Shown: piece by piece, positions 11,996 through 17,652 of the stretch
Numbering within the stretch: position 1 is the first letter of the stretch
Layout of the letters: each line of letters opens with the position of its first letter
DNA from: Halovenus aranensis
GTDB lineage: Archaea; Halobacteriota; Halobacteria; Halobacteriales; Haloarculaceae
Assembly (NCBI RefSeq): GCF_900100385.1
Contig: NZ_FNFC01000002.1
Coordinates: forward strand, 206,458 to 270,457
DNA length: 64,000 nt
Direction: 5' to 3'
The notes under the pieces: generated by a model
Database searches by the model: none
Told to the model about the DNA's origin: nothing
What the model saw: the letters and a program-made list of their open reading frames with translations, nothing else
Position numbers and translations under genes: made by a program

Positions 11996-13249
11996 ATGCT
12001 CACACCACTGGTCGCTGTCGGCTTGGTAGTCGCGGCGTTTGTCGGCTTCAACATCGGCGGCTCCTCGACAGGTGTCGCGTTCGGACCGGCAGTCGGAAGT
12101 CGTATCGTGCGGAAGGCAACCGCCGGAACGCTGTTCATGCTGTTTGCGTTTCTCGGGGCCTGGACGGTGGGCCGCAACGTCATCACGACGATGAGCGAGG
12201 GTATCGTCCCGGCCGCACAGTTCACCCCGGCGGCTGGCGTCGGGGTTCTCTTTTTCACCGGTCTATCGTTGCTGATTTCGAACATCTACGGTGTTCCCGC
12301 CTCGACGTCGATGACAGCCGTCGGTGCGATTGTCGGCCTCGGACTCGCGACAGGCACACTCAAGGAGGCGACGATGTTTACCATCGTCTCGGCGTGGATT
12401 GTCGCGCCGCTTATCGGGCTTGGCGTTGGTGCTGTTATCGGCCGGTACATTTATCCGCGACTCGAAGCACGTCTCTCCTTTACCCGGTTAGAAGACCAGT
12501 TACTCCAGATTGACCGGTCGGGACGGCTCCCGCGGTTCCGGGTGAACGAGGACGCACAGCCACGGGACATCCTCGGCTCGCTGCTGGTTCTGGTAATCGC
12601 CTGCTACATGGGATTCAGCGCGGGCGCGTCGAACGCCGCGAATGCGGTTGCGCCGCTGGTCGGCAACGGCGCGGTCAGCGTCGACCAGGGCGTGTTGCTT
12701 GCCGTCGCAGCTATCAGTCTCGGCGGGTTCACAATCGCCAGACGCACACTGGCGACAGTCGGGGACGGCATCACAGACCTCCCGATTCTGGCGGCGCTCA
12801 TCGTTTCGACGGTGGGCGCAAGCATAATCACTGTCCTCTCGTACTACGGTATTCCCGCGAGCCTCGCCGTGAGCACGACGTGTTGTATCATCGGTCTTGG
12901 CTGGGGGCGAGCGAGCCGTGTGGCGACTCTCGCAGAGCTTGCAACTCCGCCAGAGCGCGGCGACCCCGGTATGGTGCTCAATACAGGCGCACTTGCTGCG
13001 GCCTCGACCGAGGACGAAAAGCCCGCGGGACCGACTGTCGGCGAACTCGCGGGGGGGCCAGAACAGGCACCCGAACAGCCAGACGAGACGTCTCAGTCGG
13101 TCCCGGCAATCGGTGAGGAAGAGAGCGACGTCCTGAGCGCCGAGAGCCTGTTCGACCCAGCAGCCGTGAGCAGAATCGTCGTTCTCTGGATTCTCACGCC
13201 GTCGCTCTCTGTTGTCGGCTCGTACCTGCTTTTTACCCTCTTCGTATAA
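11996..13249 (+). CDS. Inorganic phosphate transporter, PiT family
   Basis: The 417-residue membrane protein has two homologous halves, each opening with the PiT signature: GFNIGGSSTGVAFGPAVG near residues 17-34 and GFSAGASNAANAVAPLVG near 205-222. About ten to twelve hydrophobic helices are visible. PiT carriers take up phosphate with a cation. A hydrophilic acidic loop of about 85 residues (roughly 310-395) precedes the last helix, longer than in bacterial PiT. No phoU gene is adjacent. A 111 bp inverted-repeat element lies just downstream. Confidence 0.92.
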   Translation: MLTPLVAVGLVVAAFVGFNIGGSSTGVAFGPAVGSRIVRKATAGTLFMLFAFLGAWTVGRNVITTMSEGIVPAAQFTPAAGVGVLFFTGLSLLISNIYGVPASTSMTAVGAIVGLGLATGTLKEATMFTIVSAWIVAPLIGLGVGAVIGRYIYPRLEARLSFTRLEDQLLQIDRSGRLPRFRVNEDAQPRDILGSLLVLVIACYMGFSAGASNAANAVAPLVGNGAVSVDQGVLLAVAAISLGGFTIARRTLATVGDGITDLPILAALIVSTVGASIITVLSYYGIPASLAVSTTCCIIGLGWGRASRVATLAELATPPERGDPGMVLNTGALAAASTEDEKPAGPTVGELAGGPEQAPEQPDETSQSVPAIGEEESDVLSAESLFDPAAVSRIVVLWILTPSLSVVGSYLLFTLFV

Positions 13250-13464: not shown

Positions 13465-14085
13465 CTACTCGTCCAGATATCCAAGCTCTTCGAGTCGTTC
13501 GGTGACTTCTCTCTCTTCTTTGGAGGTGATTCCGAAACTGTACTCGGTGTCGATGTGTTCGTCCATTACGCCCTGTGCTTCGAGTTCGCGCAACACGTGT
13601 TCGACTCCGTCGTCGATGCTCTGGTCCTCGGTGTCGACGACGATATCCGGGTTCAACGGCTCCTGGAACGGATGGTTGATGCCAGTGAACTTCTCGATGT
13701 TGCCCTTCTTTGCCTCTTCGTAGAGTCCCTTCGGGTCACGCTCTTGGGCGGCTTCGACAGAACACTTGACGTGGACGAGCACGAACTCGCCTTCGTCCTC
13801 GATGATGTCCCGGGCTTGCTCTTGGGAGTCCCGGAACGGCGTAATCATCCCGACGATGACCGGGATGTCGTTTCTGTTGAGCAGCTTCGCGATGTAGGCT
13901 GTTCGACGGTTGTTTGTCCGACGGTCTTCCCGCGAGAAGCCAAGGTCCGGGTGGAGATGCTTCCGAATCTCGTCGCCGTCCAGGTTCTCTATGTCGAACC
14001 CGCGCTCGACGAGGTGGTCTTCGACGCGACTTGCAAGCGTTGACTTCCCGGCGGCCGGTCGGCCCATGAACCAGAGTGTGAACAT
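13465..14085 (-). CDS. cysC: Adenylylsulfate (APS) kinase
   Basis: This 206-residue P-loop kinase phosphorylates APS to the sulfuryl donor PAPS. The Walker A is GRPAAGKS at 8-15, followed by the APS-binding LDGDEIRKHLHPDLGFSRED segment and RRTNNRR. The sequence VHVKCSVEAAQERDPKGLY and the F-T-G-I-N-H-P-F-Q-E-P loop are CysC hallmarks. The last ~35 residues are a small acidic extension beyond the usual core. It is the last gene of a three-gene minus-strand set (sulfotransferase, sat, cysC), only 4 bp after sat. Since no PAPS reductase is present, PAPS is probably used for sulfation. Confidence 0.95.
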   Translation of the reverse strand: MFTLWFMGRPAAGKSTLASRVEDHLVERGFDIENLDGDEIRKHLHPDLGFSREDRRTNNRRTAYIAKLLNRNDIPVIVGMITPFRDSQEQARDIIEDEGEFVLVHVKCSVEAAQERDPKGLYEEAKKGNIEKFTGINHPFQEPLNPDIVVDTEDQSIDDGVEHVLRELEAQGVMDEHIDTEYSFGITSKEEREVTERLEELGYLDE

Positions 14086-14089
14086 TGTC

Positions 14090-15238
14090 TTATTTGGTGA
14101 AAACCTCGTCCGTACTCAGTACTGCGTCGGCAACCTCCGGACGCATCAGCTCGGGCGATGGTCGCTCTCCATCCGAGAGCAACTTCCGGAGCTCTGTGCC
14201 GCTTGGCTCTATGTGGCACTCACTGTCGTGAGGACATATCTTCTCCGAAACGATTCCATCACACTCCGTGCAGTAAAAGGCATAGTGGTAGTACAGCGGC
14301 TCGATGCCGACGTTGCCAATTCCGTCGAACAGCCGCTGTGCCTCGAAGTCGCCGTAGTAGTTGCCAACGCCGGCGTGGTCGCGGCCGATGATGAAGTGGG
14401 TACAGCCGTAGTTTTTCCGGACGATGGAGTCGAAAACGGCCTCACGGGGACCGGCATACATCATCCGTGATTTGAATATCGAGAGGGCGACCGAGTCCGT
14501 CGGATAGTAGCCCTCGATGAGGGCCTCGTAGCCGTTGAGAATGGCGTTGTTCGTGTAGTCCCCGGGCTTTTTCTCACCAATCTTCGGCTGGATGAGGAGC
14601 CCATCGACGTGTTCGAGCGCGGACTTCTGGAGGTACTCGTGTGCGCGGTGTGGGGCGTTCCGGGTCTGGAACCCGACGATGGTCTCCCAGCCCCGTTTCT
14701 TGAACAACACGCGTGTCTCCTTTGGCGTGAGGTCGTAGCCACCGTTCCGTGGCAACTCATCTGCAAAGGCCTTGATAGGCCCCCCGACAAAAAACGGGTT
14801 CTTGTCCTGAACCGTGCGCACGCCCGGATGGTCTTCCTCTGTCGTTCCAAACAGGTTGTGGCACGTCTCTGCTTCGTTGTACCGGTAGACACTGTCTGCG
14901 TCCATCACACCGACCGGCTGGCCGTCAGGACGACGAAGCCCAATCCGGTCGCCAGGCTGGATTTCGTTCGCTAACTCGGTCGTAATGTCGAGTACAATCG
15001 GGAGCGGCCACGGGACACCGCTTTCGAGGGTCACGTCGTTGACGACTTTCAGGAAGTCGTTACGCCCCATGAATCCCCTCAACGGGCTGTAGACGCCCTG
15101 TGCAAGGTTCTGGAAGTCGAACAGGAGATTCCGGTCGAGAGTGACCGTCACGAGGTCTTCGAAGCCATCGCGAAGCTGTTCACTCCGCTCGGCGTCGACC
15201 GTCCTGTCGACGAGTGCGTTGCCGTGTGGCTGAATCAT
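14090..15238 (-). CDS. sat: Sulfate adenylyltransferase (ATP sulfurylase)
   Basis: The 382-residue enzyme joins ATP and sulfate into APS. It shows the nucleotide motif QTRNAPHRAH at 191-200 (with H-x-x-H), GRDHAG at 285-290 and the archaeal-type zinc cluster C323-x2-C326...C335-P-H. This single-domain form is like the archaeal and dissimilatory-type Sat and not CysDN. It starts MIQPHGNALVDRTVD, is 60 bp downstream of the sulfotransferase and 4 bp upstream of cysC, so all three are almost certainly one transcript. No reductase genes (aprAB, cysH) are nearby, arguing against energy metabolism. Confidence 0.95.
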   Translation of the reverse strand: MIQPHGNALVDRTVDAERSEQLRDGFEDLVTVTLDRNLLFDFQNLAQGVYSPLRGFMGRNDFLKVVNDVTLESGVPWPLPIVLDITTELANEIQPGDRIGLRRPDGQPVGVMDADSVYRYNEAETCHNLFGTTEEDHPGVRTVQDKNPFFVGGPIKAFADELPRNGGYDLTPKETRVLFKKRGWETIVGFQTRNAPHRAHEYLQKSALEHVDGLLIQPKIGEKKPGDYTNNAILNGYEALIEGYYPTDSVALSIFKSRMMYAGPREAVFDSIVRKNYGCTHFIIGRDHAGVGNYYGDFEAQRLFDGIGNVGIEPLYYHYAFYCTECDGIVSEKICPHDSECHIEPSGTELRKLLSDGERPSPELMRPEVADAVLSTDEVFTK

Positions 15239-15298
15239 GTGCGCCCCCTCGATTGTGTCGGCTGTCCGTGCGGTTCATCGACCCTGAGGGTGGCTGTG

Positions 15299-16213
15299 TT
15301 ACTCATCGAACGTGTAATGTGAGAGCCAGTCGTACTGCTGACTCTTGGTGCTGATTCGCTCGATTTCCTCGTCAGTCCAGTCGATTTCTTCTCGGGTGTG
15401 TTTCGGCGAGTCGAAGACGAAGTCGTCACAGGCAGTGAGATAGTCCTCGTCGGCCTCGACGCCGACAAAATCACAGAGGTCAGACAGCACGCCAGCCGTG
15501 TCATCGATGAGGTCCTCGTGATGGAGGCGAAAGAGTTCGTCAGCATCCAGCATCTCAGAGATGAGTTCGACGTTGTCTGCGTTAGCGAAGTACTTCTCGA
15601 TGCCGTACTCCCGCCAGGTCTCTTTGAGCTTGCGTCGGGAGGCAATCGTGTCGAACGGGTTCCTGACCACGTGGACGGCCCGAATCGGGACAGAGACCGT
15701 CTCACGGAGGTCGCCGAGCAGTTCGGGGCTGGTGCCCAGTCGGCGCGTCGAGGCCGCGCCTTTCTTGTCGCCGATAATCCGCAGGCGGTCGAAATCCTCC
15801 TGTGTCGTTCCGGGGATGTCGTAGCTGTACTTCTCCCACTCTCGACCCAGACCAGTGAACTCGGCGTTGCGTTGCAGGATGGCAGAGAACAACTGGTCGC
15901 GGGTGACGGGGACTTTCGCCCGGTCGAGGAGGCGGAGGGCATCTAGTTCGTGTGAGACGACCATCTCGCGGTGGCCGTTCAGGAGACTACCGACGAGGCT
16001 GTGGCCCGTGCGCCCGTGGCCGATGAACATGCAGTACGCTTCGACCGATTCGAACTCGTCCCGATGCTCGATGAGGTGTGGCAGCGCCGCGAGCCGCCGG
16101 ACGGCAGTGAACCGGTCTCGGGTGAGCGCTGGTATCCGCTCTGGGTTCTCCATGAGCTCCTTGCCCGCTGGCGGTAACGGCAGGCGCTCTGTGACACGCG
16201 TAAGTCCGGACAT
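15299..16213 (-). CDS. PAPS-dependent sulfotransferase
   Basis: The 304-residue protein has the sulfotransferase signature: a 5'-phosphosulfate-binding loop FIGHGRTGHS at 63-72 (the usual G-x-x-R-S-G-T-T with Gly-Arg-Thr-Gly-His here), and the 3'-phosphate-binding VVRNPFDTIASRR near 182-194 with Arg184 and Ser192. No signal peptide or membrane helix is seen, so it likely acts on the cytoplasmic face. It is the first gene of the operon with sat and cysC, which would supply PAPS. The acceptor is unknown; candidates are archaeal glycolipid headgroups or surface glycans, both known to be sulfated in haloarchaea. Confidence 0.9.
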   Translation of the reverse strand: MSGLTRVTERLPLPPAGKELMENPERIPALTRDRFTAVRRLAALPHLIEHRDEFESVEAYCMFIGHGRTGHSLVGSLLNGHREMVVSHELDALRLLDRAKVPVTRDQLFSAILQRNAEFTGLGREWEKYSYDIPGTTQEDFDRLRIIGDKKGAASTRRLGTSPELLGDLRETVSVPIRAVHVVRNPFDTIASRRKLKETWREYGIEKYFANADNVELISEMLDADELFRLHHEDLIDDTAGVLSDLCDFVGVEADEDYLTACDDFVFDSPKHTREEIDWTDEEIERISTKSQQYDWLSHYTFDE

Positions 16214-16399
16214 ACTCTGATAGCGACAACCGTCGGTAATAAACGCGACGACTCTGGGTCAGCACCTCCCCGTGGCGGCTGTCTTCGCTGCACAGCACGG
16301 TCGATTCCTCCGCAGTCGCGCACGCTCTGTCCATGCAAGGCGTTCGGAGCGAATCGCGAGTCGGCCAATTTTAATAACAGCACATGCTACGCCCCCTAT
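16214..16399. promoter_or_regulatory. Divergent promoter region of the sulfation operon and flippase-like gene
   Basis: This region serves the minus-strand sulfotransferase and the plus-strand unit. On the plus strand, a clear TATA (ttttaata, about 16369-16376) lies 24-31 bases before an ATG at 16400, so transcription to the right probably begins close to 16400. Confidence 0.5.
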
Positions 16400-16636
16400 A
16401 TGGAGTACCCCGCGAATCTGTCGGCCAGACGTGTCTCGTCACGAGCGGGCAGTCTATTCGCTGGGGAGACGATTGCGGCATCCAAAGACCGTTTTGGTTG
16501 GGTGTCGACGCCGCTACGAGCAGTCGTCGCCGACTTCAGGCGGCGACCGACAGCCGTGGATAGATCGGGCCGCCACGACAGCACGCCAGAGGCCGGAAAC
16601 CGTCTCGGACAGCCGGGGGGTCGCCAGTGGAGATAA
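16400..16636 (+). CDS. Possible small leaderless ORF ahead of the flippase-like gene
   Basis: A 78-codon frame (MEYPANLSARRVSSRAGS...) begins 24-31 bases after a TATA-like ttttaata, which is leaderless spacing, and overlaps the next gene by 10 bases. The composition is arginine and serine rich, and it is less acidic than a typical haloarchaeal protein, so this may instead be a long 5' leader of the flippase-like gene. I keep it as a low-confidence call because the region is otherwise an unexplained 230 bp transcript leader. Confidence 0.25.
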   Translation: MEYPANLSARRVSSRAGSLFAGETIAASKDRFGWVSTPLRAVVADFRRRPTAVDRSGRHDSTPEAGNRLGQPGGRQWR

Positions 16637-17652
16637 GCAGGCGACACGTCGTCTTCGGCGTCGGCGCATGGGTCGTCATCTACGGGGCTTTCATCCTGCT
16701 GGCGGGACCGACGGAGTTCCTCAACGAGGCCTCCAAACTCTCACAGAACCGACTGGCGGCTATTTTGCTGGTGAACGCGCTCGGCACCGTCTGTATGGGT
16801 CTGGTTCTGTTTACCGTCTCGGTTGGCGCAGGACTGAACGTCTCGCCAATCGAGAGCATCTTTATGAATACGACGGTCAACCTCGCAAACAACTTCACGC
16901 CGCTTGGCCCGGCGAGTGGCGTCCCCGCCGGCGGTGTCGTCATGTCCCGGTGGACCGGTCAGTCCTTCGAGAAAAGCGTCGCTGCGCTCTCGACGAAGGA
17001 GGTCGTCGGGTTCACGCCAGGCATTCTGGTCATGCTGTTTGGCGGGAGCTACATCGCCCTCTACGACGCGACGATTCCCGACCAGATTCGGTCACTCGTC
17101 GCCGTCTTCACCGTCAGCATCGCGGCGTTCGTCGTCGTCGTGGCGCTCGTGTACCGCAACCCTGCCCCCGCAAAACGGGTCATCCACCGGGTCGTATCGA
17201 CGCTGAACCGGGGACTAACCTACATACCCGGTGTCTCCGGCGTCGACGAGGCCGAGATACGACAGCGAATCGATAGCTTCAGCGAGTCGGTCGAGGAGAT
17301 TTCGACGAACAAACCGGTTGTACTCGCTGCGTCGACGCTTACGACGGCAGCGACAGTGACCCAAGGAATCTTGCTCTGGCTCGCGCTGGGTGGCGTGGGA
17401 TTGAGCGTCTCGCTCGCGTTAGTCGTGTTTATCGTCCCCGTCTCGCTGCTTGCCTCTGCTGTCCCGACGCCGGGCGGGAGCGGGGGCATCGAAGGCGCAC
17501 AGATTCTCCTCCTTCTCGGAATAACAGGCGGGGAGCGGGCGGCAATTATCACTGCCGTTGTCTTGACCCGCGGTCTGGTGTACTGGACACCAATTATCGT
17601 CGGCTCGCTGACGCTGACCGGCATCCAGTTTAACAAGAGGTGGCGTTCCTGA
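16627..17652 (+). CDS. Lysylphosphatidylglycerol synthase TM-region / UPF0104 flippase-like membrane protein
   Basis: The 341-residue protein has about eight membrane helices. Features include NNFTPLGPASGVPAGGV near residues 90-106 and the conserved P-T-P-G-G-S-G-G-I-E-G segment near 280, both diagnostic for the UPF0104/LPG-synthase membrane domain. Proteins of this class move or modify lipids and polyprenyl-linked sugars; the fused form is seen in haloarchaeal glycosylation enzymes. The start is a GTG at 16627, giving MEISRRHVVFGVGAW as the first helix. It is divergent from the sulfation operon, so a role in presenting the sulfated lipid or glycan is an inference from context. Confidence 0.82.
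   Translation: MEISRRHVVFGVGAWVVIYGAFILLAGPTEFLNEASKLSQNRLAAILLVNALGTVCMGLVLFTVSVGAGLNVSPIESIFMNTTVNLANNFTPLGPASGVPAGGVVMSRWTGQSFEKSVAALSTKEVVGFTPGILVMLFGGSYIALYDATIPDQIRSLVAVFTVSIAAFVVVVALVYRNPAPAKRVIHRVVSTLNRGLTYIPGVSGVDEAEIRQRIDSFSESVEEISTNKPVVLAASTLTTAATVTQGILLWLALGGVGLSVSLALVVFIVPVSLLASAVPTPGGSGGIEGAQILLLLGITGGERAAIITAVVLTRGLVYWTPIIVGSLTLTGIQFNKRWRS

Follow-up and report, generated by a model that had tools for sequence, protein, structure and literature searches.

In a 64,000-nucleotide stretch of the genome of Halovenus aranensis (the window), we analysed the following genes and promoter elements:

11996-13249, plus strand: PiT-family permease (PF01384)
13465-14085, minus strand: cysC, APS kinase with the P-loop GRPAAGKST (PF01583 and TIGR00455)
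14090-15238, minus strand: sat, ATP sulfurylase of the homomeric type (PF01747, PF14306, TIGR00339, PRK04149)
15299-16213, minus strand: PAPS-dependent sulfotransferase, ST (PF13469 and PF00685)
16237-16243, minus strand: TATA-like element of the ST-sat-cysC operon, with a conserved match in six genomes
16367-16378, plus strand: TATA-like element AATTTTAATAAC on the membrane-gene side, from genome comparison
16627-17652, plus strand: LPG_synthase_TM / UPF0104 flippase-like multi-pass membrane protein (PF03706 and TIGR00374)

The original prediction named four of these genes, and all four were confirmed by family profiles above cut-off, with the membrane gene divergent from an operon in which, as claimed, 60 bp separate the ST from sat and 4 bp separate sat from cysC. 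The interval that it assigned to the system, 14085-17652, covers the other three but omits the body of cysC, down to 13465.

The ST and the membrane gene are separated by a divergent region of 413 bp that had been proposed as a shared promoter. It does not look like one, and instead holds two separate TATA-like elements. The operon element lies 24-30 nt upstream of the ATG of the ST, a leaderless spacing, and six genomes share a T/A-rich match of the TTTATT/TTTAA type in this position. The element AATTTTAATAAC, about 250 nt upstream of the start of the membrane gene, is conserved in three of four genomes: H. salina has the identical sequence, H. rubra a similar one and LUM.21 none. A scan for bacterial-type promoters returned nothing above chance. 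We also considered a small upstream ORF (16400-16636), which in four genomes has an open frame beginning at an aligned ATG, and rejected it as coding because mismatches between the window and H. salina are even over its codon positions (28/30/30, compared with 28/8/129 for the membrane gene).

A predicted route to PAPS

The CysC product matched PF01583 at 178 bits (E 1e-52) and, at 179 bits, exceeded the TIGR00455 cut-off for APS kinases (138.7); it is 82% identical to the H. rubra protein and 89% identical to that of H. salina. Because the cut-off of PF01583 is lax (two weak extra matches also pass in the Halovenus genome), a PF01583 match in the control Haloferax volcanii is uninformative and was left out of the argument. 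The Sat product matched PF01747 (284 bits) and PF14306, scored 360 bits against a cut-off of 323 for homomeric ATP sulfurylases (TIGR00339), was also above the cut-off of PRK04149 and carries the motifs QTRNAPHRAHE and GRDHAG. Judged by these families, Sat would form APS from sulfate and ATP, and CysC would phosphorylate APS to PAPS.

The PiT permease is convergent with cysC and matched PF01384 at 144 bits; its sole NCBIfam match, the CysP sulfate permease NF053884, reached 177.8 bits and fell below the cut-off of 400. A PiT permease is also present near the H. salina locus, behind an acyl-CoA synthetase, and was not found near the H. rubra locus. A role in sulfate uptake is possible, and membership of the system is uncertain.

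Sat and cysC serve sulfate assimilation in many bacteria and PF01507 proteins are present in the genome, both of which would fit an operon whose PAPS is reduced to sulfite and sulfide. We nevertheless consider this very improbable. The 99.7%-complete genome contains no NIR_SIR domain and hence no recognisable sulfite reductase. Two PF01507 proteins lack any cysteine and have CysD as their best match, and a third was judged to be NcsA/TtcA-like by its sequence; neither a sulfite reductase nor a PAPS/APS reductase carrying a catalytic cysteine was found. The claim that no reductases lie nearby therefore holds in the neighbourhood and genome-wide. Assimilatory operons of haloarchaea are built differently: the two genomes with sat and without cysC (G025 and G037) carry it in clusters of the NIR_SIR-sat-cysH type, in which Sat is homologous to that of Halovenus (46-47%), cysH and NIR_SIR are present, and cysC and an ST are absent.

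The sulfotransferase and its distribution

The ST scored 39.9 bits for PF13469, against a cut-off of 27, and 27.9 bits for PF00685, against one of 22, and is the single Sulfotransfer_3 / Sulfotransfer_1 protein in the genome. Genome comparison placed substitutions in its gene mostly at third codon positions. A candidate 5'-PSB loop, GHGRTGHSL, is invariant across five Halovenus-type orthologues; when 15 haloarchaeal STs were aligned, G70 was nearly invariant, and R184 and S192 of a candidate 3'-phosphate-binding motif (R184NPFDTIAS192) were invariant. We built an AlphaFold2 model (pLDDT 66) from an alignment that included distant haloarchaeal STs; its best PDB matches were PAPS sulfotransferases (TM about 0.4-0.5), and all 21 matches at E <= 0.001 were sulfotransferases. 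An enzyme of this PF13469 type, predicted to be cytosolic, would transfer the sulfuryl group from PAPS to an acceptor. The sulfotransferase domains of CurM and olefin synthase resemble the ST in Pfam family (PF13469, over cut-off), 3'-phosphate-binding motif and fold, with weak sequence matches to 4gox and 4gbm (<20% identity); unlike those domains, the Halovenus enzyme is stand-alone and archaeal, and its operon also encodes the predicted PAPS supply. No relatives of the ST were found on plasmids, and a pattern-based scan of GTDB genomes, which mostly detects close relatives, found none outside Halovenus-type genomes.

APS kinase is rare in the order, with matches in 20 of 245 genomes; dropping two weak kinases left 18 genomes and 19 loci. 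An ST lies close to the kinase at all 19, and the ST types are unrelated (19-25% identity to the Halovenus ST). Eleven of the 12 genomes with PF13469 are among the 18 (Fisher p 1e-13, with no phylogeny correction). The machinery is recognisable in fewer than 10% of the 245 genomes, and most haloarchaea searched are without it. With APS kinase always near an ST in the order and a Halovenus genome that lacks sulfite reductase, the predicted pairing of a dedicated PAPS supply with a sulfotransferase is supported, and we conclude that the locus is probably a dedicated PAPS-dependent sulfation module with a membrane partner. A minority of haloarchaea would thus keep the classical PAPS system, with sulfation as its only visible use.

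The module differs from others that join PAPS synthesis to sulfotransferases. In a class B haloarchaeal module (13 loci), CysC carries a fused CTP_transf-like domain and the accompanying ST is 407 aa long. The APS kinase adjoins a sulfotransferase, as in Halovenus, and a PHP gene is often present as well; unlike in Halovenus, the ST is a different one, the loci are often on plasmids, class B genomes gave no Sat match, and the stretches examined gave no LPG_synthase_TM match. In MGIIb euryarchaea, a PAPS route from CysDN and CysC was proposed to feed sulfotransferases; it differs in its CysDN-type ATP sulfurylase, and the portions of that source considered here describe no ST operon or flippase-like partner (PMC6864105).

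The membrane protein and the acceptor

The membrane protein scored 93.1 bits for PF03706 (cut-off 33.4) and 60.5 bits for TIGR00374 (cut-off 43.2), which places it among LPG_synthase_TM / flippase-like proteins; a PDB search with it gave no meaningful match. The PF03706 family is broad, and further members are encoded elsewhere in the genome. In a Halovenus set of 18 genomes, 13 of which are less than 90% complete, those with an orthologue (at least 57% identity) are precisely the six that carry the ST: the two proteins are found together in 6/6 and otherwise in 0/12 (p 5e-5, with no phylogeny correction). The genes are linked in four genomes and on separate contigs in G258 and G259. This agrees with the association that had been predicted, and the co-occurrence and linkage suggest a functional connection between this divergently encoded protein and the ST. 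Within one genus, shared descent can also give such a pattern. Separate pairings of ST and membrane gene occur in LUM.21 and LUM.45; in LUM.21, where the contig is short, sat-cysC is not adjacent to the ST.

The flippase-like protein would most likely move or present a sulfated product with a lipid anchor across the membrane. Our best guess for the acceptor is a lipid-linked or membrane molecule that this protein moves, and we hold it to be close to an even call.

The main rival is a soluble sulfated small molecule, with the membrane protein as an exporter, an envelope-stress regulator or a loosely related neighbour. One such product could be an osmolyte of the 2-sulfotrehalose type, as in Natrialba magadii (PMC3403918). 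Consistent with this, plasmids of Natronococcus, Haladaptatus and Natrinema carry another ST next to a CysC fusion, hydropathy predicts no membrane segment in the Halovenus ST, and the surroundings of the locus in the window, in H. salina and in H. rubra showed neither a glycosyltransferase nor a glycan cluster, a point that also counts against our preferred reading. Work by Youssef from 2014 reportedly makes sulfotrehalose plausible for these three groups. However, the Halovenus ST shares only 20-23% identity with the plasmid ST linked to the CysC fusion, it has been kept together with a multi-pass membrane protein, and it did not match the Stf0-type Pfam family (PF09037), having only PF13469 and PF00685 as matches at E 1e-3. 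We regard a soluble product as unlikely.

Less likely still is an ordinary haloarchaeal sulfolipid, either phosphatidylglycerol sulfate or a glycolipid of the S-DGD type. Lipids of this kind are widespread across the class (PMC10999741) and located in the membrane, but the rarity of the machinery among the 245 genomes argues against them, as does Haloferax volcanii, in which S-DGD is the dominant glycolipid (PMC10704169) and a profile search found no PF13469 or PF00685 match. Sulfation of N-glycans in Halobacterium salinarum uses Agl30 and Agl31 (PMC11980604), which share with our system the trait of haloarchaeal sulfation and resemble alkaline phosphatases/sulfatases, not PAPS sulfotransferases; PAPS is not mentioned in that paper, and the Halovenus ST has no alkaline phosphatase/sulfatase Pfam match. 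Because of S-DGD in Haloferax volcanii and the sulfatase-superfamily Agl30/Agl31, we find no support, as a general rule, for the proposed link to standard sulfated glycolipids. Sulfated species without the machinery, which the original prediction had itself named as counter-evidence, thus weigh in part on that link, and the dedicated-sulfation part stands. Our literature search found no biochemical or lipid data on Halovenus and no identified enzyme that sulfates haloarchaeal lipids.

The two characterised Halobacterium glycan sulfotransferases are therefore unlike the Halovenus PAPS system. It is conceivable, at somewhat less than an even chance, that Halovenus has a route apart from the sulfatase-like one of Halobacterium, in which the cytosolic PAPS-dependent ST modifies a lipid-anchored acceptor and a dedicated LPG_synthase_TM protein carries the sulfated product across the membrane. 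If so, the outcome would be a sulfolipid or a sulfated lipid-linked glycan of a new kind, and the orphan flippase-like family would gain a substrate. The locus names a candidate membrane partner, so that the acceptor and the function of the orphan family are testable with four genes.

A 3',5'-bisphosphate phosphatase of the PHP family would probably cleave the PAP left over from sulfation. PHP genes resembling 3',5'-nucleoside-bisphosphate phosphatase are recurrent neighbours of APS kinase modules in other haloarchaea, with NF041577 as their best match at 78-140 bits, below the equivalog cut-off of 400. Such a gene is also encoded in the Halovenus aranensis genome, away from the module.

The operon and its genome

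On sequence evidence, the sulfotransferase, Sat (ATP sulfurylase) and CysC (APS kinase) genes form a dedicated operon for PAPS-dependent sulfation, with the divergent LPG_synthase_TM protein as its co-inherited membrane partner. All four genes of the original prediction were confirmed; its interval left most of cysC outside.

Genes of the locus (window coordinates)
13465-14085, minus strand, cysC, confirmed
14090-15238, minus strand, sat, confirmed
15299-16213, minus strand, sulfotransferase, confirmed
16627-17652, plus strand, LPG_synthase_TM membrane protein, confirmed

Gaps of 60 and 4 bp separate the operon genes, and the divergent region spans 413 bp. The nearest named relatives that we found were, by sulfotransferase identity, Halovenus salina (90%) and H. 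rubra (79%); Halovenus belongs to the family Haloarculaceae. A PiT-family permease gene (11996-13249) is convergent with cysC; its sole NCBIfam match, the sulfate permease CysP, falls under cut-off.

Pfam profile searches placed the sulfotransferase above the curated cut-off for both PF13469 and PF00685. Its motif R184NPFDTIAS192 is consistent with a 3'-phosphate-binding site, and R184 and S192 are invariant in 15 haloarchaeal sulfotransferases of several types. The nearest solved sequences are olefin-synthase and CurM sulfotransferase domains, and an AlphaFold2 model built from a diverse alignment (pLDDT 66) gave PDB matches to PAPS sulfotransferases, though at low TM-scores. The protein is probably cytosolic, since it has no hydrophobic segment. 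Differences from H. salina fall mostly at third codon positions (20/9/99 by codon position for the sulfotransferase and 28/8/129 for the membrane gene), which argues that both genes are under purifying selection.

The absence of reductase genes, originally noted for the neighbourhood, extended to the whole genome (3.29 Mb, 56 contigs, 99.68% complete), in which no NIR_SIR domain was found. Two PF01507 proteins contain zero cysteines, and one matches CysD best while the other is its close paralogue, which argues that they cannot be PAPS reductases; going by its sequence, we read the remaining PF01507 match as an NcsA/TtcA-like tRNA-thiolation protein. Only one Sulfotransfer_3/Sulfotransfer_1 protein is encoded. 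The operon thus appears not to serve assimilation. The cysteine-free CysD-like proteins (L001 1303-2331 and L044 6904-7875, in stretches from the same genome) are possibly part of another sulfation route; the L044 gene adjoins one of the type I phosphodiesterase family, whose superfamily neighbours include the Halobacterium Agl30/31 sulfotransferases.

APS kinase loci across the order

Among 245 genomes of the order, 20 had an APS kinase and two, both from Halovenus, an orthologue of the sulfotransferase. We dropped G235 and G094, with weak APS kinase matches (28-31% identity), after seeing that both stood alone. In the remaining 18 genomes a sulfotransferase lay near cysC at 19/19 loci (about 8 kb away in G217). 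This linkage, for which a haloarchaeal search had been proposed, together with the missing NIR_SIR, upholds the claim of dedicated sulfation. Of the 12 genomes with PF13469, 11 belong to these 18 (Fisher p 1e-13, ignoring kinship).

The loci were of two kinds. In class A (6 genomes), sat and cysC are separate genes and the sulfotransferases differ in type. In class B (12 genomes, 13 loci), a CysC of about 286 aa is fused to a CTP_transf/NMNAT-like domain and adjoins a 407-aa sulfotransferase; the fusion was domain-scanned in one locus and inferred for the rest from 75-92% identity. Sat had no match in class B genomes, and the fusion might act as a compact PAPS synthetase, provided that its second domain activates sulfate. 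Sat without cysC was found in two genomes, behind a NIR_SIR gene and ahead of CysH in G025, and behind a gene of NIR_SIR kind, by sequence inspection, in G037. These loci form an assimilatory contrast to the window operon, and gene context therefore separates two uses of Sat.

Class B fusions (examples) and sat genes without cysC
L012 5893-6753, class B fusion
L016 6190-7092, class B fusion
L024 6604-7464, class B fusion
L034 3878-7454, NIR_SIR-type gene and sat, then cysH
L035 3844-6665, NIR_SIR-type gene and sat

One genome without cysC, G228, carries a 1494-aa ORF (L033 2722-7203) that joins Sulfotransfer_3, GT28-type glycosyltransferase, CrtC lipocalin and polyprenyl synthetase domains, a combination that suggests a sulfated, glycosylated terpenoid.

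The membrane partner and probable promoters

The predicted pairing of sulfotransferase and membrane protein was borne out within Halovenus. Membrane-protein orthologues (at least 57% identity) were present in exactly the six sulfotransferase-bearing genomes of 18, and the other 12 had paralogues of at most 44% over most of their length, or none (p 5e-5, ignoring kinship; 13 of the 18 genomes are 52-88% complete). The threshold was set after the gap between 57% and 44% became visible; a short piece in G251 (59% over 100 residues) was grouped with the paralogues, the other piece of the same frame being at 44%. The two genes are adjacent in four genomes and on separate contigs in G258 and G259. 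In the Halovenus-type genome LUM.21 they adjoin on a 6.8-kb contig from which sat-cysC is absent; LUM.45 has sulfotransferase-sat-cysC without an adjacent membrane gene, its neighbour being a Polysacc_synt_3 flippase. Related flippase genes are convergent with cysC in G258 and G259, where the LPG_synthase_TM gene is on another contig. The membrane protein is a candidate translocator of the sulfated product.

Polysacc_synt_3-type flippase genes of G258/G259
L021 8030-9484
L047 1558-3123

In six genomes the sulfotransferase start is preceded at 24-30 nt by a TATA-like element, the spacing typical of leaderless haloarchaeal transcripts; in three of four, a second such element precedes the membrane gene by about 250 nt. 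Each side thus seems to have its own promoter, in place of the shared promoter region first proposed. An ORF at 16400-16636, open from an ATG aligned in four genomes to the membrane gene start, was non-coding by substitution pattern; the membrane gene might therefore be transcribed with a long 5' leader.

Acceptor and PAP removal

The acceptor was originally proposed to be a membrane glycolipid or lipid-linked glycan. The ordinary glycolipid S-DGD is an unlikely product: it is the dominant glycolipid of Haloferax volcanii (PMC10704169), and because this species, among the named control genomes, matched neither PF13469 nor PF00685, its S-DGD synthesis does not need a sulfotransferase of this type. 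The N-glycan sulfotransferases of Halobacterium belong to a different superfamily from the Halovenus enzyme (PMC11980604). A literature search found no Halovenus lipid data. We see even chances that the acceptor is lipid-anchored and that the membrane protein moves it. Sulfation of a small molecule is a real rival, given that 2-sulfotrehalose is already known as a haloarchaeal osmolyte (PMC3403918) and that Natronococcus, Haladaptatus and Natrinema have plasmids carrying class B sulfotransferases, but the Halovenus enzyme is only 20-23% identical to the class B enzymes.

A PHP-domain gene lies near 4/4 class A loci outside Halovenus and adjoins several class B loci. Among NCBIfam families it matches 3',5'-nucleoside bisphosphate phosphatase best, at 140 bits well under the equivalog cut-off of 400, and PDB relatives of its product include 2yb1, the Chromobacterium enzyme with that activity. 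We infer that the PHP protein may recycle PAP. Outside the locus, the window's genome also has a PHP gene that matches this phosphatase family best.
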